This document shows positions 24,428-64,000 of a stretch of DNA of 64,000 bases, piece after piece; the first letter of the stretch is position 1; each line of letters opens with the position of its first letter. This DNA comes from Planobispora longispora (GTDB taxonomy: Bacteria > Actinomycetota > Actinomycetes > Streptosporangiales > Streptosporangiaceae). Under the pieces are notes generated by a model. The model saw only the letters and a list, made by a program, of their open reading frames with translations. It was not told the origin of the DNA and ran no database searches. Position numbers and translations under genes: made by a program. Location: positions 124,001-188,000 of the forward strand of contig NZ_BOOH01000012.1 in assembly GCF_016863135.1 (NCBI RefSeq). The letters run 5' to 3'.

Positions 24428-27424
24428 GTGACGACGGGACCTACCGATAGCGAACGCGCATCGGTGCGAGACCGCGGCAAGCGGCCTGCCGCCCGATTCG
24501 GTTTGCGAAATTGGCGCGTGCGAACGCGTCTGACGGCGCTGATCCTGGTGCCGACCGCGGTGGGCGTCGTGCTCGCCGGAACGCGCGTTGTCGCCTCGAT
24601 CGACAGCGTCGCGGTGTATCAGCGCACGGCCTCCGCCGCGGAATACTCCGAGCGGCTGCGCGACCTGGCGCAGGCCATGGGATTGGAACGTGACCGGAGC
24701 GCCTGGGCGTCGTTCCCGCCGACGAACAAGACCCTGGTGGCCGGCGCCGAGGCCCAGGAGAAGACGGTCGACGACCTGCTCAAGAAGGTCCAGCTGGACC
24801 TGCAGGCGATCGACGACTCCTACGGCCCCCGTGCGGTCAAGGCCGCCCGGGACGCCCGGTATCAGCTCGACAGCCTCAAGCAGACCCGTGAGCTGCCGGG
24901 CACGAGCCGCGCCGAGAGCTACACCAAGCTGATCCAGCCGCTGCTCCAGCTGCACGAGGAGCTCTCGGTGGTCGGTGAGGACCCCTCCATCACCGGTGAC
25001 TCCCGCGGGCTCAGCGCGCTGGCCTACGCCAAGGAAGAGGTGTCCCGGCAGCGGGCCCGCCTGCTGGCCGGCTACTACGCGCCCTCGCTGATCACGCCCC
25101 AGCAGATCGAGGAGTTCATCGCCTCCCGGTCGCGCCTGGCGGAGCGCAAGACCGAGTTCGCCATCGAGGCGGGCGCCACCAACGGCCAGCTCCTGAGCAC
25201 CACTCTGGTCGACGAGCGGGTGCACCGGGCCGAGCTGACGAAGTCCAAGGCGATCGCCCTGGCCAGCAACCCCAACACCACGGGCCGCCTGCTGAGCGAT
25301 CTCAGCGAGGTCAAGCAGTGGTTCAACGACAACAGCGCGGTCCTCGACCGGATGAAGCAGGTGGAGAAGAAGGTCGCCACCGATGTGCTCACCCGGGCCC
25401 GTGAGCTCGAGGACACCGAGCAGCGCAACGCGATCGTCGCGGCGGGGCTGATCCTGGCCCTGCTCCTGCTGGTCCTCGGTCTCACCGTCATCATCGCCCG
25501 CTCGATGGTCCTCCCGCTGCGCCGTCTGCGCGCCGAGGCGCTGGACGTCGCGGGATTCAAGCTCCCCGAGGTGGTGCGCCAGCTGCGGGTCTCCGGAGAC
25601 ACCCGGACCCCCGAGGTCGCCCCCATCTCCGTCGACAGCCGGGACGAGATCGGAGAGGTCTCCAAGGCCTTCGACGAGGTCCACCGCCAGGCCGTACGGC
25701 TCGCGGCCGAGGAGTCCGAACTCCGCTCCAACATCAGCGCGATGTTCGTCAACCTCTCCCGCCGTACCCAGACCCTGGTGGAGCGGCAGATCTCGCTCAT
25801 CGACGGTCTGGAGAAGGGCGAGCAGGACGGCGGCCGCCTGGCCGACCTGTTCAAGCTCGACCACCTGGCCACCCGCATGCGCCGCAACTCCGAGAACCTC
25901 CTGGTCCTCGCGGGCCACGAGCCGACCCGCCGGCGCAGTCAGCCGGCCAAGCTGGTCGACGTCGTCCGCGCCTCGCTGTCGGAGGTCGAGGACTACGAGC
26001 GGGTCCAGGTCAAGGTGCACCGGGCGATCTCGGTCGCCGGAAGCGCGGCCAACGACATCGTCCACCTGGTGGCCGAGCTGGTGGAGAACGCCATCCAGTT
26101 CTCCCCCCGGGCCAGCCAGGTCGTCGTCTCCAGCAGCATGATCGAGGGCGGCGGCGCGCTGCTCGCGGTCAGCGACGCGGGCATCGGCATGACCGGTGAG
26201 GAACTGGTCGAGATCAACCGGCGCCTGGCCGACCCGCCCGTGGTGGACGTGTCGGTGTCGCGGCGGATGGGCCTGTTCGTGGTCGGCCGCCTGGCCCTGC
26301 GCCACGGCATCCGCGTCCAGCTCCGCCCGCAGGAGGCCGGCGGCCTCATCGCCATGGTCCTCTTCCCGCCGGAGATCATCGTCCAGGCGGCGCAGCAGGT
26401 CCCGACCCCCTCGTGGGGCGCCGACCCGTCCGCCTCGCAGAGCTCCTTCGGACAGAACTCGCTCGCGGGCGGCTCGTTCGGGCAGAACTCCCTGGCGGGC
26501 AGTTCGTTCGGGCAGAACTCCCTCGTCGGCGGCTCCTTCGGGCAGAACTCCGTCGCCGACAACTCCTTCGCCCAGACCTCCTTCGGGCAGGACGCTCTTC
26601 CGCTGACGCCTTCCTTCGGCTCGGTCTCGTCGGATTCCGCGGTCCCCGAGCAGCGGGGGCCGGTCCCGTCCGCGCCGTTCGGCGCGCCCGTGCAGAGCGC
26701 GGAGGCCCCCTCCGCCCTGCCCAAGCGCCAGGCCGGCGGCGGTCTGAGCGGCCTGAACGGCGGGGGCGGTGCGCCGGAGAGCGCCGGCAGCTCCTTCTCG
26801 GCGTGGGGACCCGCCTCGCACGACGACCCGGTCACCGCCTCGATGCCCGCGGTCGGCGTCTCCCCCCTGGAGGCCGAGCAGGAGGAATTCCTGCCGATCT
26901 TCGCCTCGGTCGAGTCGGCCTGGTTCCGCCGGGTCGACGACGCCGAGGCTCCGGCGGGACCCGCCGCGGACGAGGAGGCGATCGCGGAGGCGGCGCCGTT
27001 CGAGCCCGAGGAGTCCTTCGCGGAGATGGACGAGCCGACCCCCGCGGTCGGCGTCGCGGCCCCGGCCCCGGCCCCGGCCCCGGTCCCGGTCAGGGAACCG
27101 GTCCAGGTGCCGGCGAGCGCGCAGGCTCCGGCCCGCGTGCCGGACAACTGGCAGACTCCGGCCGACGCGGGCTGGCAGGCGGCTCAGGCCGCCAGCGATC
27201 CCAGCCTCGGCGGGATCACCTCGGCCGGTCTGCCCAAGCGGACCCCGAAGGCCAACCTGGTGCCCGGCACCGCGGCCAGCACACCGTCGTCGCCGATGCC
27301 GCCCATCTCCGCCGAGCGGGTGCGCAGCCGGTTGTCGAGCTTCCAGCAGGGCGTACGGCGGGGCCGTGCGGAACTATTTGAGGACACCGCCGACAACGCG
27401 GCGGAAAAGGAGGAAGGCCAGTGA
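24428..27424 (+). CDS. Conservon 1 sensor kinase (NIT-domain, CvnA-like)
   Basis: A 998-residue membrane histidine kinase. After TM1 (about 37-58) comes an extracellular nitrate/nitrite-sensing-type domain, TM2 (about 337-360), a HAMP linker, a phosphoacceptor-like helix FKLDHLATRMRRNSE with His479, and a HATPase_c domain (N-box VHLVAELVENAIQFSP; G-box DAGIGMTGEEL). Residues 673-722 are five 10-residue repeats of SFGQNSLAGG type. The tail ends in three short motifs shared with the kinases of conservons 2 and 3. GTG 24428 gives the standard RNWRVRTRL entry. The B gene starts in its stop. It presumably signals to the roadblock/GTPase partners. Confidence 0.93.
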   Translation: MTTGPTDSERASVRDRGKRPAARFGLRNWRVRTRLTALILVPTAVGVVLAGTRVVASIDSVAVYQRTASAAEYSERLRDLAQAMGLERDRSAWASFPPTNKTLVAGAEAQEKTVDDLLKKVQLDLQAIDDSYGPRAVKAARDARYQLDSLKQTRELPGTSRAESYTKLIQPLLQLHEELSVVGEDPSITGDSRGLSALAYAKEEVSRQRARLLAGYYAPSLITPQQIEEFIASRSRLAERKTEFAIEAGATNGQLLSTTLVDERVHRAELTKSKAIALASNPNTTGRLLSDLSEVKQWFNDNSAVLDRMKQVEKKVATDVLTRARELEDTEQRNAIVAAGLILALLLLVLGLTVIIARSMVLPLRRLRAEALDVAGFKLPEVVRQLRVSGDTRTPEVAPISVDSRDEIGEVSKAFDEVHRQAVRLAAEESELRSNISAMFVNLSRRTQTLVERQISLIDGLEKGEQDGGRLADLFKLDHLATRMRRNSENLLVLAGHEPTRRRSQPAKLVDVVRASLSEVEDYERVQVKVHRAISVAGSAANDIVHLVAELVENAIQFSPRASQVVVSSSMIEGGGALLAVSDAGIGMTGEELVEINRRLADPPVVDVSVSRRMGLFVVGRLALRHGIRVQLRPQEAGGLIAMVLFPPEIIVQAAQQVPTPSWGADPSASQSSFGQNSLAGGSFGQNSLAGSSFGQNSLVGGSFGQNSVADNSFAQTSFGQDALPLTPSFGSVSSDSAVPEQRGPVPSAPFGAPVQSAEAPSALPKRQAGGGLSGLNGGGGAPESAGSSFSAWGPASHDDPVTASMPAVGVSPLEAEQEEFLPIFASVESAWFRRVDDAEAPAGPAADEEAIAEAAPFEPEESFAEMDEPTPAVGVAAPAPAPAPVPVREPVQVPASAQAPARVPDNWQTPADAGWQAAQAASDPSLGGITSAGLPKRTPKANLVPGTAASTPSSPMPPISAERVRSRLSSFQQGVRRGRAELFEDTADNAAEKEEGQ
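26444..26593 (+). repeat. Five 30-bp in-frame repeats in conservon 1 kinase
   Basis: Each 30-bp unit encodes SFGQNSLAGG or a variant (SFGQNSLVGG, SFGQNSVADN, SFAQTSFGQD). The units keep the codon phase, and third positions differ between copies. The repeats sit in the disordered region between the ATPase domain and the C-terminal motifs, and copy number could vary between strains. Confidence 0.85.
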
Positions 27425-27975: not shown

Positions 27976-28338
27976 TTGCTGGGCATTGACGGAACCGGGG
28001 ACGAGGAGCCCCTGTTCCGTCCGTACGCGGTCACCGGCGGTCGCGCCGAGCCGCGCTATCACATGGCGATGGAGACGCTGGTCTCCTCCTCGTCCATCAT
28101 GGACGAGGAGCTGGCCCTGCTCACCCCCGAGCAGGACGCCATCATCAGGCTCTGCCGCTCGTTCCGGTCGGTCGCCGAGATCTCGGCGCTGCTGAGGGTC
28201 CCGCTCGGCGTGGCCCGCGTGCTGGTGGCGGACATGGCGGACGAGGGCCTCGTCCGTCTCCACCAGCCACGCCTTGACCAGGGACAACCGGATCTCAACA
28301 TGCTCGAAAGGGTGCTCAGTGGACTTCGCAGGCTCTAA
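27976..28338 (+). CDS. Conservon 1 DUF742 protein (CvnC-like)
   Basis: A 120-residue DUF742 protein with the conserved LFRPYAVTGGRAEP near residue 15 and a winged-helix-like core (SVAEISALLRVPLGVARVLVADMADEGLV; short form: LLRVPLGVARVLVADM). Its exact role is unknown; it is a constant partner of CvnA/B/D. The start is TTG 27976, preceded by GAGGAG at 7-nt spacing; no ATG or GTG gives the family N-terminus. Its end overlaps the CvnD-like start by about 20 nt. Could bind DNA or act as an adaptor. Confidence 0.9.
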   Translation: MLGIDGTGDEEPLFRPYAVTGGRAEPRYHMAMETLVSSSSIMDEELALLTPEQDAIIRLCRSFRSVAEISALLRVPLGVARVLVADMADEGLVRLHQPRLDQGQPDLNMLERVLSGLRRL

Positions 28339-28906
28339 CCGCGGCGGCCTGACGTCGACGAAGATCGTCGTCGCGGGCGGGTTCGGCGTCGGCAAGACCA
28401 CGTTCGTGGGCGCCGTGTCCGAGATCCTCCCGCTGACCACGGAAGCGGTCATGACCGAGGCGAGCTCGGGTGTCGACGACCTCGGCCTCACGCCGAACAA
28501 GGCGACCACCACGGTGGCGATGGACTTCGGCCGCCTCTCGCTGGACAGCGACCTGATCCTGTACCTGTTCGGCACGCCGGGTCAGCACCGGTTCTGGTTC
28601 ATGTGGGACGACCTGGTGCGCGGCGCCATCGGCGCGGTCGTGCTGATCGACACCCGGCGCCTGGCCGACGGCTTCCCGGCGATCGACTACTTCGAGGAGG
28701 CCAAGCTCCCCTTCGTGGTCGGCATCAACGGCTGGGACGGGCAGTTCCTGCACACCGAGGACGAGGTGCGGGAGGCGCTGGCGCTCGCCCCGCACGTCCC
28801 CATCGTGCGCACCGACGCCCGCTCCCGCGAGTCCGTCAAGTCCACGCTGATCACGCTGGTCGAGCACGTCCTGCGGGTCCGCGCGGCCTACGGCATGTCG
28901 GTCTGA
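28319..28906 (+). CDS. Conservon 1 small GTPase (CvnD-like)
   Basis: A 195-residue Ras/MglA-like GTPase. P-loop GGFGVGKTTF (G1), switch region TTTVAMDFGR, G3-like FGTPGQHRFWFMW, and NGWD in place of NKxD (G4). GTG 28319 lies inside the end of the DUF742 gene and follows AAAGGGTG; this start is shared with conservon 3. In the known Streptomyces conservons the protein binds GTP and interacts with the other members at the membrane. A hairpin 9 nt past the stop closes the operon. Confidence 0.93.
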   Translation: MDFAGSNRGGLTSTKIVVAGGFGVGKTTFVGAVSEILPLTTEAVMTEASSGVDDLGLTPNKATTTVAMDFGRLSLDSDLILYLFGTPGQHRFWFMWDDLVRGAIGAVVLIDTRRLADGFPAIDYFEEAKLPFVVGINGWDGQFLHTEDEVREALALAPHVPIVRTDARSRESVKSTLITLVEHVLRVRAAYGMSV

Positions 28907-30138: not shown

Positions 30139-31767
30139 TCACGGGAGGTGACGGTAGAACTCCACGTGCTCGGGCGGCAGGGGAGTGTTGCCGAGGATGA
30201 GGTCGGCGGACTTCTCGGCGAGCATCATCACCGGGGCGTAGATGTTGCCGTTGGTGACGTACGGCATCGCCGCGGCGTCCACCACGCGCAGGCCCTCGAC
30301 CCCGTGGACCCGCATCGTCGCCGGGTCCACCACGGACATCTCGTCCACGCCCATCCGGCAGGTGCACGAGGGGTGCAGGGCGGTCTCGCCGTCGCGGGCG
30401 ACCCAGTCGAGGATCTGCTCGTCGGTCTCCACGGCCGGGCCGGGGGAGATCTCGCCGCCGCTGAACTCGGCGAAGGCGGGCTGGGAGAGGATCTCCCTGG
30501 TCTTGCGGATCGCCTCGACCCACTCGCGGCGGTCCTGGTCGGTGGACAGGTAGTTGAACCGCAGGGCGGGCTTGGCGCGCGGGTCGGCGCTCCTGATGCG
30601 CACGCTGCCGCGCGCGTCGGAGTACATCGGGCCGATGTGGACCTGGTAGCCGTGGCCGGAGGCGGGGGCCGAGCCGTCGTAGCGGATCGCGATCGGCAGG
30701 AAGTGGAACATCAGGTTCGGGTAGGCGACCTCGTCGTTGGAGCGGATGAACCCGCCGGCCTCGAAGTGGTTGCTCGCGCCCGGCCCCGAGCGCCGGAACA
30801 ACCAGTCCGCGCCGATGAACGGCCGCCGCCACCCGGCCAGCGCGGGCGCCATGGAGACGGGCTTGACGCAGGCGTGCTGGACGTAGACCTCCAGGTGGTC
30901 CTGGAGGTTCTCGCCCACCCCCGGCAGGTGGTGCACGACCTCGACGCCCACCCGCTTGAGCAGGTCCGCGTCGCCGACGCCGGACAGCTGCAGGAGCTGC
31001 GGGGAGTTGATCGCGCCGCCGCAGAGGATCACCTCGCCCGCGCGGACGCGCTTGCCGTCGAACTCGACCCCGACGGCCCGCCTCCCCTGAAATATGATCT
31101 TCGAGACGTGGGTGCGGGTCCGTACGGTGAGGTTGCGGCGGCCCAGCACCGGGTGCAGGTAGGCGCGGGCGGCGCTCACCCGGCGGCCCCGGTGCAGGGT
31201 GCGGTCGAAGGCGGCGAAGCCCTCCTGGCGGAACCCGTTCACGTCGTCGGTGAGCGGGTGCCCGGCCTGCTGCACCGCCGCGAAGAACGCCTCGAACAGC
31301 GGTCCCCGCGCCGGGCCGCGCTCCAGGAGCAGCGGCCCGTCGTGTCCGCGGAACGGGGTGCCGGGATCGTCCAGGCAGTTCTCCATGCGCTTGAAATACG
31401 GCAGGCAGTGGGCGTAGTCCCAGTGCTCCATGCCGGGATCGGCCGCCCAGCGCTCGTAGTCCAGCGGGTTGCCGCGCTGGAAGATCATGCCGTTGATGCT
31501 GCTGGAGCCGCCGAGGACCTTGCCGCGGGCGTGGTAGACGCGGCGGCCGTTCATGTGGGGTTCGGGTTCGGACTCGTACTTCCAGTCGTAGAACCGGTTG
31601 CCGATGGGGAACATCAGCGCCGCCGGCATGTGGATGAACACGTCCCACCGGTAGTCGGGCCGGCCCGCCTCCAGGACCAGCACGCGGGCCGAGGGGTCGG
31701 CGCTCAGCCGGTTGGCCAGCGCGGAGCCGGCCGATCCGCCGCCGATGATGACGTAGTCGTAACTCAC
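30139..31767 (-). CDS. GMC oxidoreductase, choline dehydrogenase-like
   Basis: A 542-residue FAD enzyme of the glucose-methanol-choline family. The N-terminal ADP-binding motif is [16 protein letters not shown]; the FAD loop [14 protein letters not shown] and the C-terminal HPSCTCRMG active-site region are present. Expected reaction: oxidation of choline (or another alcohol) to the aldehyde, toward glycine betaine. The start is GTG 31767, overlapping the preceding binding-protein stop by 4 nt; a longer reading frame upstream is inside that gene. Last gene of the betaine-type transporter operon, which supports a choline/betaine substrate. No betaine aldehyde dehydrogenase is adjacent; an aldehyde dehydrogenase lies 18 kb away. 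Confidence 0.9.
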
Positions 31768-32702
31768 CTGGGCATCCAGTCCTTCCAGACGATCTGGTTG
31801 GCGTCGATCCACTTGGCGGCCGCCTGCTCGGCGGTGAGCCCCTTCTGGGCGATGTCGCTCGCCACGGCGTTCTGCTGCTCGTTGGTCCAGGAGAAGTTGC
31901 GGACCAGCTCGTACGCCTTGCCCCCGGTGTCGGCGAACCGCCTGCTCACGATCTTGTCGAGCAGGTAGGGCGGATAGTCGCAGGAGACTTTCTTCGGATC
32001 GGCGTCGCAGCCGATCGCGTAGGGCGGCAGATTGATTTTCACCAGTTTGACCTGACTGAACAGCCACTGCGGTTCGTAGAAGTACAGCAGCAGCGGCTCG
32101 CGTTTCTCGGTCGCGCGCCGGGCGGCCTTTATCAGGGCGTCCTCGCTGCCCGAGTAGACGACCTTGTAGTCGAGGTCGAGATTGCGCACCAGCGCCTCGT
32201 CATTGGTGACGTAGGAGGGGTCGCCGTCGAGGACCTGGCCCAGGTCGCCGGTTTTCCCGGTCCGGAAGAGGGGGGCGTATTTATTGAGGTTCCGCCAGTC
32301 GGTTATGTCGGGATATTTCTCGGCCATCCACTGCGGCACGTACCAGCCGATGACCCCCCTGTTGCCGTTCCGGCCGGCGGAGACCGCGACCTTCTTCTCC
32401 TCGATGTAGGTCTTCTTCTCCGCCTCGCGGCCCCAGTTCTCGATGATGACGTCCACGGTGCCCTTCTCCAGGCCCTCCCAGGACTGGGCCTCGTTGAGCT
32501 CGACGGTCTCCACCGTGTAGCCGAGCTCCCGCTCCAGGAGCTCGCCGAGGACCGCGGCGCTGGCCTCGTAGCCGACCCACGGGTTGACGGCGATCTTCAC
32601 GGTGCCGCCGGTCTCGGCGGGCGCGGGATCCGGGACGCCCGACGAGGGCAGGCTGCAGGAGGAGAGCAGGAGCAGCGCCGCGAGCGCCGTACCAGGTCTC
32701 AT
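31764..32702 (-). CDS. Glycine betaine/choline-type substrate-binding lipoprotein (second copy)
   Basis: A 312-residue OpuAC-family binding protein. Lipobox [11 protein letters not shown] places the lipidated Cys near residue 16. The mature protein runs [42 protein letters not shown], and [18 protein letters not shown]; the conserved tryptophans build the aromatic box that holds quaternary amines. It is a paralogue of the binding protein immediately upstream, with similar architecture throughout. It is translationally coupled to the dehydrogenase. Two hairpins separate it from the first binding-protein gene. Confidence 0.92.
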
Positions 32703-32723
32703 GGGACACCTCCGGGACGCGGG

Positions 32724-32796
32724 CCCGGCTCGCGGGAGCCGGGCGGCCCGTTGAGAGAGGAAGGGCCCGGCGGGCGGTCGTGCCGCGCGCCGGGCC
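32724..32796 (-). terminator. Two hairpins between the tandem binding-protein genes
   Basis: CCCGGCTC (32724-32731) pairs with GAGCCGGG (32736-32743), and GGCCCGGCG (32764-32772) with CGCCGGGCC (32788-32796). They fill the 102-nt gap and may attenuate transcription or protect the upstream mRNA, so that the first binding protein is made in excess. Confidence 0.55.
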
Positions 32797-32804
32797 GGGG
32801 TCGG

Positions 32805-35800: not shown

Positions 35801-36831
35801 GATCCGGCTCCGGCCAGGGAGGCGAGGATGTCCCGGCGGTCGACCACGCCGAGCAGCTCGTCGTCCTCGACCACGCGGATGGGCGCGTCGGACTCCAGCG
35901 CGGCGGGGACGGCGTCGCGGATGATCGTCCGGGCGGGGAGCGCCGGGCCGTCGAGCCGCTCGTCCCCGCCGGGGGAGCGGCAGATCCAGCGGAGCGAGAG
36001 CACCTCGCTCCTGGGCACGTCCCTGACGAAGTCCGCCACGTACTCGTCGGCCGGGGCGCCGACCAGCTCCTCGGCGGTGCCGAGCTGGACGATCGCGCCC
36101 GCCCGCATGATCGCGATGCGCTCGCCCAGCTTGAGCGCCTCCGCCAGGTCGTGGGTGATGAACAGCATCGTCTTGCCCACCTCGCGGTGCAGGCGGACGA
36201 CCTCGGCCTGCATGTCGCGGCGGATCAGCGGGTCCAGCGCGCTGAACGGCTCGTCCAGGAGCAGCACGTCGGGGTCGGCGGCCAGGGCGCGGGCCAGCCC
36301 GACCCGCTGCCGCATGCCGCCGGAGAGCTGGTCGGGCCTGGCCTCGGCGTGGCCGTCCAGGCCGACGAGCGTGAGGATCTCCCGCGCCCGCTCGTGCCGC
36401 CTGGCCCGGGGGACGCCCTGGACCTCCAGGCCGTAGGCGACGTTGTCGACGACCTTGCGGTGCGGCAGCAGCCCGAAGTGCTGGAAGACCATGCTGACCC
36501 GGTGCCGCCGCAGGTCCCGCAGACGTGCGGGGGAGGCGGCGCACACGTCCTCGCCGGCGATCGAGATCTCCCCGGCGGTCGGCTCGATCAGCCGCGTCAG
36601 GCAGCGGACCAGGGTGGACTTGCCGCTGCCCGACAGGCCCATCACGACGAACACCTCGCCGGGCCGTACCGAGAAGCTCACATCCCTGACGGCGGCGACG
36701 CATCCGGTCCTGGCCCGGAGCGCGGCCGGGTCGAGCGCGGCGTCGGGGCTGCCGAGGACACGGTCGGCGCGGTGACCGAAGATCTTCCAGAGGCCGCGAA
36801 CCTCGATCGCGACGCCGTCGGATGAGGCCAC
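35797..36831 (-). CDS. Betaine/proline-type ABC ATPase with a C-terminal CBS-like segment
   Basis: A 344-residue ATPase of the ProV/OpuAA class. Walker A is GLSGSGKST, with signature [16 protein letters not shown], Walker [14 protein letters not shown] and THDLAEAL. The C-terminal 70 residues ([20 protein letters not shown], then [17 protein letters not shown]) look like a single CBS module, which in this family senses ionic strength; a usual member has two. GTG 36831 follows GGAGGG by 4-5 nt; a TTG 12 nt earlier is the alternative. It begins the operon ATPase-permease-two binding proteins-dehydrogenase, with 4-nt overlaps. Confidence 0.92.
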
Positions 36832-37204: not shown

Positions 37205-39949
37205 GTGAGTACAGGCAGAGCCCGGAAAACGGGCAACGGTCTGCGGCTGCGCAACTGGCGGGTGCGTTCCAGGCTGGTCGCGCTCATCCTGGTCCCCACC
37301 GCCGCCCTGGTCCTGCTCGCGGGCCTGCAGGTGGCGGCCTCGGTCAACGCCGCATCCGACTATCAACGCGTCAACGACCTGGCCCGGCTCTCGGACCGGA
37401 TCGGCGCGCTCACCCACGAACTGGCCGAAGAGCGCGACCGCACCGCCTGGTTCATCGCCCTGGGCCGCCCCGAGGACGTGGCGGAGGAGGTCCGCGACCA
37501 GATGGGCGCCGTGGACTCCACGGCCGCCCGCGTCCGCGACGGCGGCACCTTGATCGCCGGGGAGACGGCGGGCCGTACCGGGGACGAGATCCGGGCCGCG
37601 CTGGCCCGGCTGGACGACCTGGCGCCGCTGCGGCGGCAGGCGCTGGAGGAGAAACTGCTGCCCGACGCCGCGATCGACGCCTACACCCTCGTGATCGCCG
37701 ACCTCCTCTCCCTCCACGACGAGCTCGGCAAGGGCAGCTCCGACGACCTGCTGTTCGGCCGGTCGCTCACCCTGGACGCGCTCGCCCGGGCCAAGGAGAG
37801 CCTCTCCCTGCAGCGGGCCCTGCTGAGCGTGGTGCTGGTCGCCGGACGGTTCGAGCAGGAACAGATGGAGAGATTCCTCGGCGCCATCTCCTCCGAACGG
37901 AACGAGCGCGCGGCCTTCTCCGCGGAGGCCGGCCCCGAGGACCGGCGCTTCTTCGACGAGACCGTCAACGGCCACACCGCCGACCGCGCCGACTTCCTGC
38001 GGGAACTCGTCATGGTCCGGGCCGCCTCCGGCGCCTCCCTCAAAGGGCTGGACCTGTCCGAGGAGGACGACGCCCGGCAGTGGTACGAGGCGGTGTCGGT
38101 GACGATCGACCGGATGCGCGCCGTCGAACAGCGGCACGCCGAGGCGATCGTCACCCGCAGCCGGGAGCTCCGCGACGCCGAGCGGGACCGCGCCCTGGTG
38201 GTCGCCGGATCGGCCGCCGGACTGCTCCTGGCCATCCTGCTGATCACCACCGGGGTGGCGCGCTCGCTGGTCCGTCCGCTCCGGCGGCTGCGCCGGGAGG
38301 CGCTGGAGGTGGCCGGGAAACGGCTGCCGGCATACGTCCAGCAGGTACGGGAGTCACGCGACGGAGAGGCCCCCGCCGAGGTGCCCCCGATCGGGATCAT
38401 GTCGCGCGACGAGATCGGCGAGGTCGCGCGCGCCTTCGACGAGGTGCACCGGGAGGCCGTGCGGCTGGCGGGCGACGAGGCCAAGCTGCGCAAAACGATC
38501 AACGCGATGTTCGTCAACCTCTCCCGCCGGAGCCAGACCCTGGTCGAGCGCCAGCTCACCCTGGTCGAGCGGCTGGAGCGCGGCGAGCGAGACGACGACC
38601 GCCTGGCCGACCTGTTCAAGCTCGACCACCTGGCCACCCGCATGCGCCGCAACAGCGAGAGCCTGCTCGTCCTCGCCGGGCAGGAGGTGGTGCGGCGCTG
38701 GCGGCAGCCGGTCGAGATCATGGACGTCGTACGGGCCTCCCTGTCGGAGGTGGAGAACTACGACCGGGTGGTCACCCGCGTCCACGCCGAGGCGGCCGTG
38801 ACCGGCCCCGCCGTGAGCGACGTGGTCCACCTGCTCGCCGAACTGGTGGAGAACGCGATCGCCTTCTCCCCGGAGGAGAGCAAGGTCACGGTGTCCTGCG
38901 ACAGGACCGGCAACGGCATGATGATCTCGGTGACCGACCACGGGATCGGCATGTCCGCCGAGGAGATCGCCCAGGCCAACGCCCGCCTGGTCGCCCCACC
39001 GGCCGCCGACGCCGCCGCGGCCCGCCGCATGGGGCTGTTCGTGGTCGGCCGCCTGGCCCTCAAGCACGGCATCCGCGTCCAGCTCCGCCCCCAGGAGACG
39101 GGCCTGACCGCGATGGTCCTGCTCCCCGAGTCGCTCCTCGTCCCCCTCACCGGCCCGTCCTTCCCGCCGCCCCTCGCGCCGGGCTCGCCCTTCCCCTCGT
39201 CACCCGCCCCGGGCGCCACCGGCCCGTCCTTCCCGCCCCTCGCCCCGGGCGCCGCCGGGCAGACCGGACCCGTGCCCCTTCCGGCGGCGGCCGTACCGCC
39301 GCAGCCCAGACCGCCCGAGGTCACCGGGCCGAGTGCCTGGATCCCGCCCCTCCGCGAGGACCGGCTCCCCCCGGAGCACTCCGGCCCCTTCGACCGCTTC
39401 AACTTCACGACGCCCTCCCCGCAGGCGCCCCCCGAACGGTTCGACCGCTTCGCGATGGGCTCCCGGGAGCCCGCGGAGCCGGAACAGCCCCCGATCCCCC
39501 CGGAGAGAATCGAACCGCTGCCCGCGGTGGGCACCCCCGCGCTGGACAGCGAGGACGAATACCTGCCGATCTTCGCCTCGGTCGAGTCCGGCTGGTTCCG
39601 CACGGTCGATCGCATGTCGCCGCGGCCGCCCGACCCCTCCGGCCCCACCGGATCCGCCGTCCCGGACGAGCCCTCGGATCCCTGGACCTCCCCGGCGGAC
39701 AGCGGCTGGCAGGCCGCCAGTGTCGCGAGCGACCCCTCCTTCGTCGGACTGACCTCCGCCGGCCTGCCCCGCCGCACCCCCAAGGCCAACCTGGTCCCCG
39801 GCTCGGTGCCGCGCGCCACCCCGGCCCGCCCCGAGCCCCGCCCCGAACCCGCGATGCCGGTCTCGGCCGAGCGGGCGCGCAACCGGATGGCCGAGTTCCA
39901 GCAGGGCCTGCGCCGGGCGCGCGACGAACGCCCGAACCGGGAGATCTGA
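37205..39949 (+). CDS. Conservon 2 sensor kinase (NIT-domain, CvnA-like)
   Basis: A 914-residue membrane histidine kinase with the same order as the conservon 1 kinase: RNWRVRSRL entry, TM1 (about 23-45), a NIT-like extracellular domain, TM2 (about 335-358), HAMP, FKLDHLATRMRRNSES with His475, and HATPase_c (VHLLAELVENAIAFSP, DHGIGMSAEE). The tail is rich in Pro and ends with the three shared motifs (DEYLPIFASVESGWFR; SAGLPRRTPKANLVPG; SAERARNRMAEFQQGLRR). GTG 37205 follows GAGAGG. Only a DUF742 gene follows; no roadblock or GTPase gene accompanies it, so it either borrows partners from another conservon or works differently. Confidence 0.92.
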   Translation: MSTGRARKTGNGLRLRNWRVRSRLVALILVPTAALVLLAGLQVAASVNAASDYQRVNDLARLSDRIGALTHELAEERDRTAWFIALGRPEDVAEEVRDQMGAVDSTAARVRDGGTLIAGETAGRTGDEIRAALARLDDLAPLRRQALEEKLLPDAAIDAYTLVIADLLSLHDELGKGSSDDLLFGRSLTLDALARAKESLSLQRALLSVVLVAGRFEQEQMERFLGAISSERNERAAFSAEAGPEDRRFFDETVNGHTADRADFLRELVMVRAASGASLKGLDLSEEDDARQWYEAVSVTIDRMRAVEQRHAEAIVTRSRELRDAERDRALVVAGSAAGLLLAILLITTGVARSLVRPLRRLRREALEVAGKRLPAYVQQVRESRDGEAPAEVPPIGIMSRDEIGEVARAFDEVHREAVRLAGDEAKLRKTINAMFVNLSRRSQTLVERQLTLVERLERGERDDDRLADLFKLDHLATRMRRNSESLLVLAGQEVVRRWRQPVEIMDVVRASLSEVENYDRVVTRVHAEAAVTGPAVSDVVHLLAELVENAIAFSPEESKVTVSCDRTGNGMMISVTDHGIGMSAEEIAQANARLVAPPAADAAAARRMGLFVVGRLALKHGIRVQLRPQETGLTAMVLLPESLLVPLTGPSFPPPLAPGSPFPSSPAPGATGPSFPPLAPGAAGQTGPVPLPAAAVPPQPRPPEVTGPSAWIPPLREDRLPPEHSGPFDRFNFTTPSPQAPPERFDRFAMGSREPAEPEQPPIPPERIEPLPAVGTPALDSEDEYLPIFASVESGWFRTVDRMSPRPPDPSGPTGSAVPDEPSDPWTSPADSGWQAASVASDPSFVGLTSAGLPRRTPKANLVPGSVPRATPARPEPRPEPAMPVSAERARNRMAEFQQGLRRARDERPNREI

Positions 39950-39951
39950 AC

Positions 39952-40377
39952 ATGTCGGGCCCGCACTGGCACGACCCACCGGGTGAGGACGGCCACCACC
40001 ACACGCCCAAACACAGCCGCCCGCCGTACGGGGACGCGGCGGAAGAGAGCTCGCTGGTCCGGATGTACACCGTCACCGGCGGCCGGACCACCCCGCGCAA
40101 CCAGCTCGCCATCGAGGCGCTGGTCTCCTCCGCGACCTCCGGGATCCTGGGCATGTCCTTCACCCGCGAATACCGCGCGATCAGCGAGATGTGCCGCCAG
40201 GTCCGCTCGGTCGCCGAGATCTCCGCCCTCCTCGGCGTCCCGCTGAGCGTCGCCCGCGTCCTGGTCTCCGACATGGAGGCCGAGGGCCTGGTCCGGGTCT
40301 ACCACCCCCCGACCAGGGACAGCGGCCCCGCCTCCGACATCCTCGAACGCGTCCTCCACGGCCTGCGCCGCCTCTGA
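39952..40377 (+). CDS. Conservon 2 DUF742 protein (CvnC-like)
   Basis: A 141-residue DUF742 protein starting 2 nt after the kinase stop. It has a His-rich N-terminal extension (DGHHHTPKHSRPPYG) not seen in the other two DUF742 proteins here, then MYTVTGGRTTP and the core VRSVAEISALLGVPLSVARV. The His cluster could bind metal, though this is speculative. It is placed where a roadblock gene would normally follow the kinase, so the operon has the order A-C only. The next gene is convergent. Confidence 0.9.
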   Translation: MSGPHWHDPPGEDGHHHTPKHSRPPYGDAAEESSLVRMYTVTGGRTTPRNQLAIEALVSSATSGILGMSFTREYRAISEMCRQVRSVAEISALLGVPLSVARVLVSDMEAEGLVRVYHPPTRDSGPASDILERVLHGLRRL

Positions 40378-50009: not shown

Positions 50010-50037
50010 CGTTTTCGAGCACGAGCAAGGACGTTCC

Positions 50038-51578: not shown

Positions 51579-54500
51579 GTGAAGACACAAGACCGCCGGA
51601 ACCGCCGTGCCTCAGGGGCGGCCGCCCGGTTCCTACCGGCGAACTGGCGCGTCCGTCCCCGTCTGGTCGCGCTGATCCTCCTCCCGACCGTGGCGGCCGT
51701 GCTGCTGAGCGGCCTGCAGCTCACCACCGCGCTGGCCACCTCCACCGAGTACCGCCGGATGTCCGAGGTGGCCACGCTCGTCGAGCGGCTGGGCACGCTC
51801 TCCCACGAGATGGCCCAGGAGCGGGACCTCACCGCCTGGTACATCGCCGACAACCGGCGCCCGGCCCGGCTGTCCGCCGTCAAGAAGCAGCGCGAGACGG
51901 TCGACAGGGCCGGCGACGAGGTGCTCAAGGCGGTGGCGTCGATCACCGACGACCACGCGGCGCGGGTGCGGAGCGAGGCGTCCCAGGTGCGCCGCTGGCT
52001 GCACGGGCTCCCCGGCCTGCGCAACCTGATCACCGAGGGCAGCGTGCTCCCGCGTGCCGCCCTCGGCATGTACTCGCGAATGATCGCCGACTTCGTCACC
52101 CTCCACGACGACCTCGGCCGCAGCGGCGGCGACGAGCGCCTGATCGGTGACGCGCTGGCGCTGGGCGCGCTGACCCGGGCCAAGGAGCAGCTCGCGCGGC
52201 AGCGCGGCATCCTGCTCGTCGCGCGCCTGGAGGGCGGGTTCGACTTCGACGACCCGGCCGACTTCCTCGGCTCGTACAAGAGCCAGGTGAGCGAGGTGGC
52301 GGCCTTCCAGGCGACCGCCTCGGCCGCCCAGATCCGGCGCTTCCGCGAGCTGGTCAGCGGCGCGAAGGTCGACCGGGCCGACGCCATGCGCGCCCTGGTC
52401 ATGGCGCGCATGCGCGAGAACAAGCCCCTGGGCGTCGTGGGCATCCGCACCTGGTTCGACTCCGCCAGCGCGGCGGTGGACGGCATGCGGACCCTCGAGA
52501 GGGACATGGCCGCCGCGGTCGTCGCGCGCAGCCAGGAGATGCAGAGCGCCGAGCAGCGCAGCGCCATCATCTCCGGCGGCGCGATCCTCGTCCTGCTGGT
52601 GCTGACCCTGTTCATCACCTCCTGGGCGGTCCGCTCGCTGGTCCGCCCGCTGCGCAGGCTGCGCAGCGAGGCGCTGGAGGTGGCCGGATCCAGGCTCCCC
52701 GACACCGTCCGCGCGCTGCGCGACTCCGGGGACCCCACCTCGAAGATCGAGGTTCCCTCCATCGGGGTGACCTCCCTCGACGAGATCGGGGAAGTGGCCC
52801 GGGCCTTCGACGAGGTCCACCGCGAGGCCGTACGGCTGGCGGGCGACGAGGCCCGGCTGCGCGCGAACGTCAACGCGATGTTCGTCAACCTCTCCCGGCG
52901 CACCCAGTCGCTGGTGGAGCGCCAGATCGACCTCATCGACGACCTGGAGCAGGGCGAGCAGGACGACGACCGGCTGGCCAGCCTCTTCAAGCTGGACCAC
53001 CTGGCCACCCGCATGCGCCGCAACTCCGAGAACCTGCTGGTCCTCGCGGGCCAGGAGCAGAGCCGCCGGTGGAGCGAGCCGGTCCCGCTGGGCGACGTGG
53101 TGCGCGCCTCGCTGTCGGAGGTGGAGAACTACGAGCGGGTGACCCTCCGGGTCGAGTCCGGCACCCTGATCATCGGGCAGGCCGTCAACGACATCGTGCA
53201 CCTGGTCGCCGAGCTCGTCGAGAACGCGATCTTCTTCTCGCCGCAGGACACCAAGATCATGGTGACCAGCAACGGCAACGAGATGGGCAGCGTCATCGTG
53301 GCGGTCACCGACCAGGGCATCGGCATGAGCGACGAGGAGCTGATCGAGGCCAACCGCCGCCTGTCCGAACCGCCCTCGGTGGACCTGTCGGTCTCCCGCC
53401 GCATGGGTCTGTTCGTGGTCGCCCGTCTGGCCCAGCGCCACGGCATCCGCGTCCAGCTCCGCCGTCCGGAGACCGGCGGCCTGAGCGCCGTCGTCCTGCT
53501 CCCCCCGCAGGTGGTCGCGCAGGCCATGGCGCCGCAGCCGATCATGTCGGGGGCCCCGCAGCCGGGCACCGTGGGGGCGCTCGGACGCGAGGCCGACCCG
53601 TTCGCCGGGGGGCTGCGGCAGGACCCGTTCGGATCGGCCTCCATGCCGTCGGCCTCCATGTCGTCGATGGAGATGTCCTCCTTCACCCATCCGCCGGCGG
53701 AGGACCCCTTCGCCGCCTCCGGCTCCTTCGGGGCATCGGGTTCCTTCGGGGTGTCCGGCTCCTTCGGGACGTCCGATTCCTTCGGCGGGCGTCCGCGCGA
53801 GGAGCGGCCCCCCTTCGGCATGCCCCCGATGGACGACACGCCGTTCGGCGCGCCGCCCACGCCGAGGGCCGCGGCCGCGCCGCTGCCGGCCCCGGCGGCT
53901 CCGCCGGTCCCGTCGGTCCCGATGGACGCCGCGCCTCCGGCCGCTCCCGTCGGGCCCACGCCCTCCATCTCGGACCTGTGGTCCAAGCCGGTGGTGTCGG
54001 CCTCGGAGGTGGAGAGCCTGTGGTCGTCGCCGTTCACGCCGGCCCCGGCGCCGTTCCCGGCCGCGCCGGAGGCGGCCCCGCCGGGGCCGCCCGCGTCCTT
54101 CCCGCCCGCGTCGTTCCCGCCCGCGGCCGCGGCGCCCCCGGCGCCGTCCTGGCCGGACGCGCCTCCGGCGCCGTCCTGGCCCGACACGTCCGCGGCGGAC
54201 GGCTGGGGGACGCACCGGCAGGAGCCGGGTGAGAACACCCAGACGCTGCCCGCGGTGGGGGTGTCGCCGACCGAGCCCGAGCCCGAGGAGTTCCTGCCCA
54301 TCTTCGAGGCGGTGGGGTCCGACTGGTTCCGCCGCAGCGTCCCGGAGACCGGGGCCGCGGCGGGCTCCGGCGCGGACCTCGGCTCCGACGCCGGTCCGGG
54401 CGAACCGGAGGCCCGCCCGGCCGAGCCGGAGTCCCGTCCGGCGGAGTCTCCGCGACCGCCCGCCGAGCGGCAGGAATGGAGCGGCAGCTCCGCCGACCAG

Positions 54501-54755
54501 GGATGGGCCGCGGCGCAGGCGGCGGCCAAGCCCGCGGAGGGCGGTCTGACCGGCGCGGGACTGCCCAAGCGGGTGCCCAAGGCCAATCTGATCCCGGGGG
54601 CGGCTCCCGCCGCGCCGGCCACGCCGGCGCCCCCGATGCCCCCGCTCTCGGCGGAGCGGGTGCGCAGTCGTCTGTCCAGTTTCCAGCAAGGATCACGGCA
54701 GGGCCGTGCTGAGATGAGCGAGCGGTCCAAGGCCGTCGAGGGAGACATGCAGTGA
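51579..54755 (+). CDS. Conservon 3 sensor kinase (NIT-domain, CvnA-like)
   Basis: A 1058-residue membrane histidine kinase, the longest of the set. Entry NWRVRPRL, TM1 (about 30-52), NIT-like sensor domain, TM2 (about 327-347), HAMP, FKLDHLATRMRRNSEN with His474, and HATPase_c (VHLVAELVENAIFFSP, DQGIGMSDEE). A Ser/Gly/Phe repeat (residues 714-737) and a Pro/Ala-rich stretch lead to the shared C-terminal motifs EEFLPIFEAVGSDWFR, GAGLPKRVPKANLIPG and SAERVRSRLSSFQQGSRQ. The GTG at 51579 has no clear ribosome site. Its stop overlaps the roadblock gene start by 4 nt. Confidence 0.93.
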   Translation: MKTQDRRNRRASGAAARFLPANWRVRPRLVALILLPTVAAVLLSGLQLTTALATSTEYRRMSEVATLVERLGTLSHEMAQERDLTAWYIADNRRPARLSAVKKQRETVDRAGDEVLKAVASITDDHAARVRSEASQVRRWLHGLPGLRNLITEGSVLPRAALGMYSRMIADFVTLHDDLGRSGGDERLIGDALALGALTRAKEQLARQRGILLVARLEGGFDFDDPADFLGSYKSQVSEVAAFQATASAAQIRRFRELVSGAKVDRADAMRALVMARMRENKPLGVVGIRTWFDSASAAVDGMRTLERDMAAAVVARSQEMQSAEQRSAIISGGAILVLLVLTLFITSWAVRSLVRPLRRLRSEALEVAGSRLPDTVRALRDSGDPTSKIEVPSIGVTSLDEIGEVARAFDEVHREAVRLAGDEARLRANVNAMFVNLSRRTQSLVERQIDLIDDLEQGEQDDDRLASLFKLDHLATRMRRNSENLLVLAGQEQSRRWSEPVPLGDVVRASLSEVENYERVTLRVESGTLIIGQAVNDIVHLVAELVENAIFFSPQDTKIMVTSNGNEMGSVIVAVTDQGIGMSDEELIEANRRLSEPPSVDLSVSRRMGLFVVARLAQRHGIRVQLRRPETGGLSAVVLLPPQVVAQAMAPQPIMSGAPQPGTVGALGREADPFAGGLRQDPFGSASMPSASMSSMEMSSFTHPPAEDPFAASGSFGASGSFGVSGSFGTSDSFGGRPREERPPFGMPPMDDTPFGAPPTPRAAAAPLPAPAAPPVPSVPMDAAPPAAPVGPTPSISDLWSKPVVSASEVESLWSSPFTPAPAPFPAAPEAAPPGPPASFPPASFPPAAAAPPAPSWPDAPPAPSWPDTSAADGWGTHRQEPGENTQTLPAVGVSPTEPEPEEFLPIFEAVGSDWFRRSVPETGAAAGSGADLGSDAGPGEPEARPAEPESRPAESPRPPAERQEWSGSSADQGWAAAQAAAKPAEGGLTGAGLPKRVPKANLIPGAAPAAPATPAPPMPPLSAERVRSRLSSFQQGSRQGRAEMSERSKAVEGDMQ
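53718..53789 (+). repeat. Four 18-bp in-frame repeats in conservon 3 kinase
   Basis: Units encode SGSFGA, SGSFGV, SGSFGT and SDSFGG (residues 714-737). They resemble the SFGQ-based repeats of the conservon 1 kinase in composition and in position between kinase core and C-terminal motifs. Confidence 0.8.
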
Positions 54756-55174
54756 ACCACCAACTCAGTCAGGCCGCCCGAGGGTTCAATTGGCTGATCA
54801 CCGAGTTCGTCAAGGAGATGCCGGGCGTCGCCCACGCGGTGATCGTCTCCACCGACGGCCTCCCGCTGGCCTACTCCCAGGGATTCCCGAAGGACCGCGC
54901 CGACCAGCTCGCCGCGATCACGGCGGGCCTGATCAGCCTGACCCAGGGGGCCGCCCGGGTCTTCGAGGGCGGCCCGGTGGTGCAGACCGTGATCGAGATG
55001 CAGCGGGGGCTCCTGCTGACCATGTCGGTCAGCGACGGCTCCGCCCTCGCGGTGCTGGCCGCCCCCGACTGCGACATGGGCTTGGTGGCCTACCAGATGA
55101 CGCTTCTGGCGGAGCGTGCGGGCCAGGCGCTGACGCCTGCCCTGCGCGCCGAGCTCCAGGCGTCCCAGCGGTAG
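54752..55174 (+). CDS. Conservon 3 roadblock/LC7 protein (CvnB-like)
   Basis: A 140-residue roadblock protein, nearly the same length and sequence pattern as the conservon 1 copy: RGFNWLITEFVKEMPGVAHA, SQGFPKDRADQLAAITAGL, PDCDMGLVAYQMTLLAERAG. GTG 54752 overlaps the kinase stop. It should dimerise and act on the GTPase encoded two genes downstream. The DUF742 gene follows after 55 nt. Confidence 0.93.
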   Translation: MNHQLSQAARGFNWLITEFVKEMPGVAHAVIVSTDGLPLAYSQGFPKDRADQLAAITAGLISLTQGAARVFEGGPVVQTVIEMQRGLLLTMSVSDGSALAVLAAPDCDMGLVAYQMTLLAERAGQALTPALRAELQASQR

Positions 55175-55229: not shown

Positions 55230-55598
55230 ATGAATGAGCCGCCGCCTCAGGCCAAGAGCGGGAGAGATCGCCTGATCCGCCCGTACGCTGTGACCGGGGG
55301 AAGAACCGCTCCTCGGACGCAGCTTGCGCTCGAGGCGCTGGTCTCCTCGGCGACTGCTCCGAGCGTGGATCCCTCCATGCTCTCGACGGAGTACCAGGCC
55401 ATCACCATGCTGTGCCGGCAGCTGCGTTCGGTCGCCGAGGTCTCGGCGCTGCTGCGCATGCCGTTGGGTGTCACCCGCGTGCTGATCGCGGACATGGCGG
55501 CCGAGGGCCTGGTGCAGATCCACCATCCGTCGCTGGATGCCGGAAAGCCGGATCTCAGCTTGCTTGAAAGGGTGCTCAGTGGGCTTCGCAGGCTCTGA
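55230..55598 (+). CDS. Conservon 3 DUF742 protein (CvnC-like)
   Basis: A 122-residue DUF742 protein with LIRPYAVTGGRTAP and the winged-helix-like core VAEVSALLRMPLGVTRVLIADM. ATG 55230 follows AAGGAGGG at a 10-nt gap. The C-terminus (LLERVLSGLRRL) is almost the same as in the conservon 1 copy, and it overlaps the GTPase start by about 20 nt in the same way. Function within the complex unknown. Confidence 0.92.
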   Translation: MNEPPPQAKSGRDRLIRPYAVTGGRTAPRTQLALEALVSSATAPSVDPSMLSTEYQAITMLCRQLRSVAEVSALLRMPLGVTRVLIADMAAEGLVQIHHPSLDAGKPDLSLLERVLSGLRRL

Positions 55599-56160
55599 CG
55601 CCGGAATGGCCTCGGCCGGGATGACGTCGACGAAGATCGTCGTCGCCGGCGGATTCGGTGTCGGCAAGACGACCTTCGTCGGGGCTGTCTCCGAGATCAT
55701 GCCGCTGACCACGGAAGCGGTCATGACGGAGGCGAGCGCGGGGGTCGACGACCTCTCACAGATCCCGACGAAGCGGACCACCACGGTGGCGATGGACTTC
55801 GGCCGGGTCTCGCTGGATCGCGACCTGATCCTCTACCTGTTCGGCACGCCGGGTCAGCACCGGTTCTGGTTCATGTGGGACGACCTGGTCAAGGGCGCGA
55901 TCGGGGCGATCGTTCTGGTCGACACCCGGCGCCTGGCCGACAGCTTCCCGGCGATCGACTACTTCGAGGAGGCCGGCCTCCCGTTCGTCGTCGCCCTGAA
56001 CGGCTTCGACGGCGATCACCTGCACGGTGAGGAGGAGGTGCGGGAGGCTCTGACGATCTCCCCCCACATCCCCATCGTCCGGACCGACGCCCGCTCCCGT
56101 GACGCGGTGAAGGCCACGCTCATCACCCTGGTCGAGCACGTCCTGACCCTTCGCGTCTGA
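55579..56160 (+). CDS. Conservon 3 small GTPase (CvnD-like)
   Basis: A 193-residue Ras/MglA-like GTPase with P-loop GGFGVGKTTF, FGTPGQHRFWFMW and NGFD in the G4 place. It is close to the conservon 1 GTPase over its whole length (for example both have TTTVAMDFGR and AIDYFEEA), with an extra GMASAG stretch before the first strand. GTG 55579 lies in the end of the DUF742 gene. A strong terminator follows after 36 nt. Confidence 0.94.
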   Translation: MGFAGSDAGMASAGMTSTKIVVAGGFGVGKTTFVGAVSEIMPLTTEAVMTEASAGVDDLSQIPTKRTTTVAMDFGRVSLDRDLILYLFGTPGQHRFWFMWDDLVKGAIGAIVLVDTRRLADSFPAIDYFEEAGLPFVVALNGFDGDHLHGEEEVREALTISPHIPIVRTDARSRDAVKATLITLVEHVLTLRV

Positions 56161-59798: not shown

Positions 59799-59807
59799 AG
59801 CGGGTCC

Positions 59808-62373: not shown

Positions 62374-62837
62374 CAGCTCTCCTTAGCTGCATTGATCACC
62401 TCGGCGGGACTCGGCGAAGCGCGAGGCGGCGTGAGAGAGGGTCCCGGGAGGCAGATGATCAAGGGGGTGTCGATCGTGGATCAGAGTAGCGGAGAGAATT
62501 GCTCGAATAACAAATATCGCCTATCAGGATAAAACGGTCATAATAGGATTTATGCCGTTTTACGGACGGTCGTTGGTTTTGTCGCCTTTGGGGGCGATCC
62601 GGAGGGATGTCCGTTCACCGCGGGAGAGGTTCGCCGACGCGCCGGAGGGCTCTGTCCGGTTGGGGGAGCGGTGTGACGGTTGTGGATAATCCGTAACTTA
62701 TGCACCGTTGGCCGAACTCTTCCGGTTGTGCTCCAATAACCTCTACCCCATGGATGCATCGGCGTCCCATGCTTATCAATTGATGTGACGCGATCCCCCT
62801 CTAAGGAGTGGGTCCGAGGAGAGGCAGCGGAAGCCCA
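62374..62837. other. Divergent control region between the aromatic-type ABC operon and conservon 4
   Basis: No gene. Two divergent promoters are expected; AT-rich patches are at 62500-62560 and 62690-62790. An inverted repeat stands at 62530-62562. No tRNA-like structure was seen. Confidence 0.6.
62530..62562. promoter_or_regulatory. Inverted repeat TAAAACGG-N17-CCGTTTTA
   Basis: Exact 8-bp arms at 62530-62537 and 62555-62562 separated by an AT-rich 17-nt spacer lie 157 nt before the binding-protein start and about 275 nt before the conservon 4 kinase start. Could be an operator for a dimeric regulator or a cruciform; no adjacent regulator gene is visible. Confidence 0.5.
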
Positions 62838-64000
62838 GTGAGGACAGCGTCAATCCCCAGCAAACTCGGCCCTGAGCCAGCCGACGCCCCAACCGCCGCC
62901 GTCCAGGGCCGAGACCTCGGGCGGCGGGACGTGCGGAAGGGCGGAGGAGTCGCCCTCCGAAACTGGCGGGTCCGGTCGCGGCTGATCGTTCTCATCGCCA
63001 TCCCCACCGTCGCGATGATCGTCCTGGGCGGCCTTCGAGTGATCACCTCGATGAGCAGCGCGGCCGAGTACGAGCGCGTGCGCACCAGCGCCGAGCTCGC
63101 CGCCGAACTCAGCGAGCTGGCGCACGAGCTGGAGGAGGAACGCGACCTCTCGGCGCGCTTCGTGGCGCAGGGACGCCCGGCCGGCGGGGAAGGCGAGCTC
63201 AAGGAGCAGTACGAAGCCGTCGACAGGATCGCCGTGGACGTCGTCGACCGCATCGATCTCCTCCTCGGCGGCGACACGGACGACGCCAGGGGGCAGGGCG
63301 ACATCGAACTCGCCCACGTGCGCAACCGCGTCGACGAGCTCGGGAGCATGCGCAAGACGGCGGTGGATACCCAGATCCCCGCCCAGCCCACGATCGCCAT
63401 GTACTCCCGGACGATCACCGACCTGCTGGCCCTGCACGACGACATCGTCCAGGGCGTCACCGACCAGACCCTCGCCGGCGGCGTGCACGCGTTCGCCACG
63501 CTGGCCAGGGCCAAGGCGCAGGCCTCCGAGGAGCGGGCCATCCTCGCCGTCGCGCTCGCCGAGCGGAGGTTCGGCTCCGAGAGCCTGGACGCCTTCATCT
63601 CCGCCCGGGCGAGGCGCGACAGTGAACTCGCGACCTTCCGGGCCGAGGCGACGGTCGCCCAGAAGCAGCTGTTCGACGACACCGTGAGCAGCCATAAGAA
63701 GGACCGCGCGGAATCCATGCGGCAGCGCGCGCTGGTCCTGGCCGGTACGGGAGCCCCGCTCGTCCGGGTCGACACGTCGTCCAGGGCCGGGGCCGGAGAC
63801 CAGGCCGTCTGGTTCGACGTGGCCTCCGACGTCGTCACGCGCATGCGCGAGGTCGAGAAGAAGATCGCCGAAGCGGTCATCGCGCAGAGCCGTACCCTCC
63901 AGGAGGCCGAGCAGCGCGGCGCCCTGATCGCGGGAAGCCTGACGGTCTTCCTCCTCCTGCTGGTCCTGGCCGTCACCGCGATCATGGCCCGCTCGCTGGT
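62838..64000 (+). CDS. Conservon 4 sensor kinase, N-terminal part (NIT-domain, CvnA-like)
   Basis: The frame is open from GTG 62838 to the right edge (387 codons visible). An N-terminal Pro/Gly-rich stretch leads to RNWRVRSRL, TM1 (about 50-70), a NIT-like extracellular domain (ELAHELEEERDLSARFVAQG; TIAMYSRTITDLLALHDDIV), and TM2 (about 362-384) ending IMARSLV at the edge, exactly the pattern of the three complete kinases here. HAMP, kinase and tail are beyond the window. The GTG is preceded at a distance by AAGGAG and GAGGAGAGG; a start within a few codons is possible. Partners, if any, lie downstream. Confidence 0.9.
   Translation, partial: MRTASIPSKLGPEPADAPTAAVQGRDLGRRDVRKGGGVALRNWRVRSRLIVLIAIPTVAMIVLGGLRVITSMSSAAEYERVRTSAELAAELSELAHELEEERDLSARFVAQGRPAGGEGELKEQYEAVDRIAVDVVDRIDLLLGGDTDDARGQGDIELAHVRNRVDELGSMRKTAVDTQIPAQPTIAMYSRTITDLLALHDDIVQGVTDQTLAGGVHAFATLARAKAQASEERAILAVALAERRFGSESLDAFISARARRDSELATFRAEATVAQKQLFDDTVSSHKKDRAESMRQRALVLAGTGAPLVRVDTSSRAGAGDQAVWFDVASDVVTRMREVEKKIAEAVIAQSRTLQEAEQRGALIAGSLTVFLLLLVLAVTAIMARSL

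Follow-up and report, generated by a model that had tools for sequence, protein, structure and literature searches.

Conservons, the G protein systems of actinobacteria, combine a sensor kinase (CvnA), a roadblock/LC7 protein (CvnB), a DUF742 protein (CvnC), and a Ras-like GTPase (CvnD). A CvnB homologue has been described as a GTPase-activating protein (GAP) and a CvnC homologue as a likely guanine-nucleotide exchange factor (GEF) (PMC13343842), and MfpC, a CvnC homologue of mycobacteria, is likewise given the GEF role in PMC13015309, where one figure legend swaps the labels. CvnA9 binds CvnB9 and CvnC9, which in turn bind CvnD9 (PMC9739842, citing Komatsu 2006), and the phosphorylation target of CvnA8 is stated to be unknown (PMC13343842); units reduced to CvnA and CvnC, or to CvnB and CvnD, bear on how CvnA affects the rest of a conservon. 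Here we analyzed a stretch of 64,000 nucleotides of Planobispora longispora (the window; bases 124001-188000 of a 205-kb contig in a genome of 8.84 Mb), where four conservon-type kinases with a NIT domain occupy the interval from glnD to ffh in the order glnD, A1-B1-C1-D1, 8.3 kb, A2-C2, 11.2 kb, A3-B3-C3-D3, 6.7 kb, A4-B4-C4-D4, ffh (letters denote the Cvn genes and numbers the units). The second unit has lost its own GTPase switch, which suggests that it may borrow one from its neighbours.

The four units and the reduced second unit

The kinases all lie on the forward strand, with CvnA1 at 24428..27424 (998 amino acids, aa), CvnA2 at 37205..39949 (914 aa), CvnA3 at 51579..54755 (1058 aa), and CvnA4 at 62808..64000 (start at 62808 or 62838), where it is cut by the window end. 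NIT and HATPase_c exceed the Pfam cut-off in each of the four, and HAMP scores 25.6, 26.0, 24.8, and 24.4 against a cut-off of 25, slightly below it in units 3 and 4. The NIT domain (PF08376) occurs at nine sites in the host genome, all above the cut-off, and four of these are inside the window; the chance of 4 of 9 NIT kinases falling within 38.7 kb is ~4e-5 by a rough uniform-placement formula. The cluster of four conservon-type NIT kinases noticed in an earlier sequence-only reading is thus borne out by the NIT and HATPase_c matches and by the entry motif NWRVR common to all four, as is the phosphoacceptor-like helix that it had described: FKLDHLATRMRR is present in the kinases at 24428, 37205, and 51579, and FRLDHLATRMRR in the fourth kinase, past the window end. 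Its claim that the kinases differ mainly in sensor and tail holds insofar as the tails vary in length and sequence, yet an LPxR motif (already described in PMC4316618) and a C-terminal FQxG motif are common to all four; the transmembrane layout was assessed by eye only.

In units 1, 3, and 4, the sensor kinase CvnA, with its NIT, HAMP, and HATPase domains, is followed by a roadblock CvnB, a DUF742 CvnC, and a CvnD GTPase in that order. In unit 1 these are CvnB1 (27421..27843, PF03259), CvnC1 (27976..28338, PF05331 at C12:152003-152335), and CvnD1 (28319..28906, PF03029), and in unit 3 CvnB3 (54752..55174), CvnC3 (55230..55598), and CvnD3 (55579..56160), all on the forward strand; the start codons of CvnD1 and CvnD3 are uncertain, and among the B and D proteins Pfam was applied to B1 and D1 only. 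The fourth kinase, which had been taken for truncated, is not: the contig reads on to a complete 1018-aa protein with its own CvnB4, CvnC4, and CvnD4 beyond the window, followed by ffh (67587-69131 in window numbering). Among the three kinases that had been called complete, CvnA1 and CvnA3 head A-B-C-D units, whereas the kinase at 37205 has only CvnC behind it.

This sole partner, CvnC2 (39952..40377, forward strand, PF05331), has its ATG 2 bases past the CvnA2 stop. CvnA and CvnC are thus both found in unit 2 (37205-40377), and profile and tblastn searches found neither CvnB nor CvnD there. No B or D match or relic was found by tblastn (array and nonarray B and D queries, E 0.01) in the 22.7 kb from D1 to A3 around A2-C2, and no displaced B2 or D2 was found elsewhere in the host, where the CvnD and CvnB matches are all assigned to other units except for one weak CvnB-like match on contig C36. 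The host totals nine NIT kinases (kinases without NIT being left uncounted), five CvnD (E 1e-8), six CvnB-like matches plus one weak, and eight DUF742 proteins above the cut-off plus one weak match below it; NIT kinases therefore exceed switches genome-wide. A second A-C pair is on contig C19, a lone NIT kinase on C50, and an A-B-C unit opposite a complete conservon on C14. The C14 conservons (60000-79000; L012) are convergent, the incomplete one being without CvnD, and the same two gene contents recur as a pair in G018 (L039) and G008 (L051). The C50 kinase (L013) has 623 aa and no long tail, LPxR, or Cvn partner, and its orthologues in G001, G002, G003, and G018 are alike.

The trees and gene contents indicate that A2-C2 is derived from a complete conservon whose B and D were lost; this happened two or more times, and A and C were retained on each occasion. 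B, C, and D are all present with the A2 orthologues of G006, G007, and G041, and C only with those of G000, G001 (kinase split across two contigs), G003, G076, Planomonospora, and Streptosporangium. In G075, an A2-type kinase and a CvnC with no B or D lie 1.6 Mb from the ffh array of that genome. In an IQ-TREE tree of 42 kinases the reduced A2 group with those of G006 and G007 (Shimodaira-Hasegawa-like approximate likelihood ratio test, SH-aLRT, 96), leaving out the A2-C2 of G075, and B and D have therefore been lost at least two times in the A2 line. The fourth unit of G007 is likewise A-C only. A leftover B-D pair in G075 was considered as the lost partner of its distant A2-C2 and rejected, since its B groups with type-1 B; the pair looks like a remnant of another unit.

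The A-C state recurs outside the array too. NIT matches in 41 genomes sum to 160 (not all listed), and 118 rows from these genomes and seven from named loci made up a 125-row FastTree tree, no stretch being taken from G011, G016, G017, G020, and G022; 36 array-type kinases were added to give 161 rows, the tree being also without a duplicate P. rosea row and short or weak kinase fragments. Omitting 11 of the 161 rows with cut context or fragments (including the A2 of P. rosea, with C and a CvnB-like gene), the contexts of the 150 NIT kinases are A-B-C-D in 108, A-C in 24, A alone in 8, A-B in 4, A-B-C in 4, A-B-D in 2, and A-D in none. The fewest state changes on the FastTree topology are eight for A-C, two for A-B, and two for A, and the probability that at least 8 of 10 kept single partners are C, with equal chance among three, is P = 0.003, assuming independent changes and a correct topology. 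Because the gene order is A-B-C-D, reaching A-C requires two separate deletions, which makes the co-retention of A and C informative. The reverse content, B-D without A and C, occurs in two genomes (G012 and G075). In the 125-row set the LPxR tail motif is present in 75/77 A-B-C-D kinases, 19/22 A-C kinases, and 0/8 lone kinases. The phospho-acceptor His is retained in all 24 A-C kinases of the 150. A highly divergent CvnD-like gene stands beside a normal CvnD in the G015 array (L088, 12612-13211), in a unit whose CvnC has been lost.

Possible targets of the reduced unit

We propose that CvnA and CvnC would form an input module (sensor kinase and nucleotide-exchange factor) and CvnB and CvnD a switch module (GAP and GTPase), and that A2-C2, having no switch of its own, would act on the CvnD1, CvnD3, or CvnD4 of neighbouring units; four sensors would then drive three similar GTPases. 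From sequence and by analogy with described conservons, we give this wiring a probability of about 0.5. The wider proposal, that conservons in general consist of separable A-C input and B-D switch modules, each evolving and moving independently of the other, and that lineages gain switch-less inputs which converge on few shared GTPases, is a tentative one and less likely than not; if true, it would mean a network of many receptors and few G proteins in bacteria, like the eukaryotic one. A shared switch is plausible given that within the host CvnD1, CvnD3, and CvnD4 are 81-87% identical and CvnB 74-80%, compared with 47-50% (over kept columns) for the kinases. Among 18 genus representatives, the nearest sequence is a paralogue of the same genome for 14/57 D, 8/56 B, 4/56 C, and 3/58 A (all three in G006); D differs from A (Fisher's exact test: P = 0.004), with rows that are not independent and a D that is short and conserved. 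This similarity of D and B paralogues weakly supports interchangeability inside the array. The host D are 95-99% identical to their orthologues in the compared relatives, closer than the D paralogues are, and thus show no sign of homogenisation. The sequence-only reading had suggested separate inputs with shared partners; units 1, 3, and 4 each possess their own B, C, and D and thus have no need to share, and the idea stays alive for one unit, A2-C2.

Several points weigh against this wiring. C2 has 0.14-0.22 nonsynonymous substitutions per site (dN), compared with 0.008-0.05 for C1, C3, and C4, and such faster evolution would also fit relaxed constraint. The A-C pairs of C19 type stand without B or D in the 7-14 kb fetched around them, save for weak matches in three of nine stretches, so that an A-C pair need not rely on its neighbours. 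In P. rosea (G002), a CvnB-like gene of uncertain type follows C2 at a distance of 0.4 kb, where the contig ends. A-B only (4) and A-B-D (2) units exist too, the eight A-C changes were counted on a FastTree topology in which some branches are weak, and the sample of losses consists of NIT kinases only. Finally, expression data for cvn8 pair CvnC8 with CvnD8, not with CvnA8 (PMC8510531).

The main rival, which we regard as unlikely though less so than the others, takes A-C as self-contained: the kinase would phosphorylate or bind CvnC as the output, and its winged helix would act on DNA or RNA polymerase without any GTPase. C2 has weak Pfam matches to the helix-turn-helix families MarR_2 and IclR, below the cut-off, and a predicted winged-helix core (AlphaFold mean pLDDT 62 for the whole model, near 80 for the core alone), and a profile search of the fetched 7-14 kb around the C19-type pair and its orthologues in eight relatives found no B or D, with weak tblastn matches in 3/9 (best E 4e-5). 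The CvnC homologue MfpC, however, is described as a GEF (PMC13343842, PMC13015309), and a Foldseek search with the C2 core (residues ~70-117) ranks SEA/GATOR1 chains, which are Rag GTPase regulators, ahead of DNA-binding proteins, all hits being weak (best E 0.016, none below 0.01). On the predicted model, these matches raise a possible link of CvnC to eukaryotic GTPase regulators.

Decay of A2-C2 into a conservon with little function left is distinctly improbable. B2 and D2 are gone, C2 evolves fast, and G018 has also lost the kinase body together with the choline genes (joined stretch L084+L085, ~31250-32110), keeping the last A2 tail codons and an intact CvnC2 directly behind CvnD1. On the other side, A2-C2 are open frames in the host genus, Planomonospora, Streptosporangium, and G076, with a separately placed pair in G075; A2 retains its catalytic residues, and its ratio of nonsynonymous to synonymous rates is 0.42-0.49, within the range of 0.37-0.70 for A3 and A4 (Nei-Gojobori NG86 method on high-GC genes, the values being useful only relative to each other). 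Among 83 sets that are complete or nearly so, 28 CvnC positions are conserved at >=80%, and the window C2 retains 25 of them. Of the three changes in the window C2, two are common to all nine C2, and the positions are also altered in the C2 of G006 and G007; these two therefore predate the loss of B and D; conserved-site loss after that event amounts to one change private to the window C2 and none common to all reduced C2.

We consider it highly unlikely that the array systems are insulated and that A2-C2 works through an unrelated protein or through a GTPase encoded elsewhere in the host (in the conservon of C1 or that of C14). Two further host CvnD genes, 58-61% identical to CvnD1, could serve this role. 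Against it, the array CvnD are 81-87% identical to one another, and in relatives the closest sequence to a D or B of an array is a paralogue more often than it is for an A, which favours interchangeability inside the array.

Age and spread of the array

On the trees and gene neighbourhoods, this is an old tandem array of conservons that one branch of the family has retained in the glnD-ffh interval. Of 61 genomes sampled from the family (about one per genus), 19 carry at least two array-type CvnD (matching CvnD1 with an E value no higher than 1e-82), 38 carry a single copy, and four carry none. In 18 of the 19 multicopy genomes, the end of an array-type CvnD lies no more than about 0.5 kb upstream of ffh; the exception is G007, where the last B and D are lost. 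Among the 38 single-copy genomes, G044 also has an array-type CvnD beside ffh, five (G021, G024, G042, G049, and G072) have CvnD and ffh on one contig but >400 kb apart, and in the remaining 32 the position is not judgeable, with CvnD and ffh on different contigs or ffh not found. Matches to glnD were found in 31/41 genomes; glnD and ffh are on one contig and 9.8-46.9 kb apart, with 2-4 kinases between, in 16 genomes, and the gap is at most 0.41 kb in 11/41. Less easily accommodated are G005 and G025, where glnD and ffh are separated by 4.9 and 10.6 kb with no Cvn genes found between, and G032 and G036, where they are 1.0 and 3.2 kb apart. Arrays have one unit at ffh (G044), two (G041 and G058), three, or four, a range as expected from stepwise tandem growth plus losses. 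G006 (L100-L103) has the most array-type kinases seen, six with two extra of A4 type, spread over three contigs so that the order of the kinases is inferred.

The four array kinases split together from the other five NIT kinases of the host in the FastTree tree of 125 CvnA and, with SH-aLRT 100, in the IQ-TREE tree of 42 kinases, and thus form a clade of tandem paralogues apart from them. In the IQ-TREE tree each of A1-A4 groups with the orthologues that occupy its array position in other genera (SH-aLRT 96-100), no array kinase having another of the four as its nearest relative; the branching order among A1-A4 differs among three trees or is left unresolved by them. Tandem expansion as put forward in the sequence-only reading therefore holds, but it is old, the orthologues extending across genera. 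That reading had set against itself a grouping of each kinase with distant conservons of other genomes; each does group with kinases of other genomes, yet these are orthologues from the same array. A recent tandem duplication in the host, as kinases of common architecture standing side by side might suggest, is rejected by the trees and has next to no probability, each kinase being nearest to orthologues of other genera and the four being no more than 50% identical.

Flanking genes and known systems

The left border of the array is formed by amtB, glnB, and glnD (20329..24296, forward strand; TIGR00836 amt above the cut-off, glnB named by eye), with glnD at 22020-24296 on the open reading frame map. 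The A1-A2 interval holds a choline dehydrogenase (betA above the cut-off) and a choline/betaine transporter (proV and choline permease, likewise above it). In the A2-A3 interval are a transporter resembling potD/potB/potC (below the cut-offs) and an aminobutyraldehyde dehydrogenase (which passes the subfamily cut-off), and an SsuA-like transporter (below the cut-off) precedes A4. The uptake genes for choline/betaine (30139-36843, minus strand) and for polyamines (43928-51444) keep a conserved position. Choline permease is found in 10 of 26 arrays or part-arrays, all 10 with an A2-type kinase, and of the 16 without it 7 carry such a kinase (by tree assignment, uncorrected for kinship). Since these transporter genes and amtB-glnB-glnD adjoin the array, one might guess that it senses nitrogen compounds.

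In the open-licence literature, as far as its available parts extend, we found no account of a conservon array between glnD and ffh or of A-C-only conservons. A 2026 survey of actinobacterial G protein systems (PMC13343842) seeks cvnC two genes from cvnA; on its description, a cvnC that directly follows cvnA, as in the A-C pairs, would therefore go unscored. The natural occurrence of units with A-C alone or B-D alone suggests that CvnA and CvnC are linked directly and that conservons are wired to one another.

The locus shares with the Cvn1-Cvn13 conservons of Streptomyces coelicolor the four protein families, the gene order in three of four units, and a NIT-type CvnA, and differs in that four units are arrayed between glnD and ffh, one of them with CvnA and CvnC only. 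Adjacent duplicated conservons, one without a GTPase gene, have been described before (Wuichet and Sogaard-Andersen 2014, PMC4316618) and likewise have unequal gene contents; in the available parts of that account only loss of the GTPase gene is described, whereas here the loss extends to CvnB as well as CvnD but spares CvnC, and the A-C state recurs in separate branches and isolated loci. The mycobacterial Mfp conservon (MfpE-D-C-B-A, PMC13015309) has homologues of the kinase, GAP, GEF, and GTPase in common with the units here, but unlike the array it is complete, occurs as a single copy, and includes a pentapeptide protein in addition.

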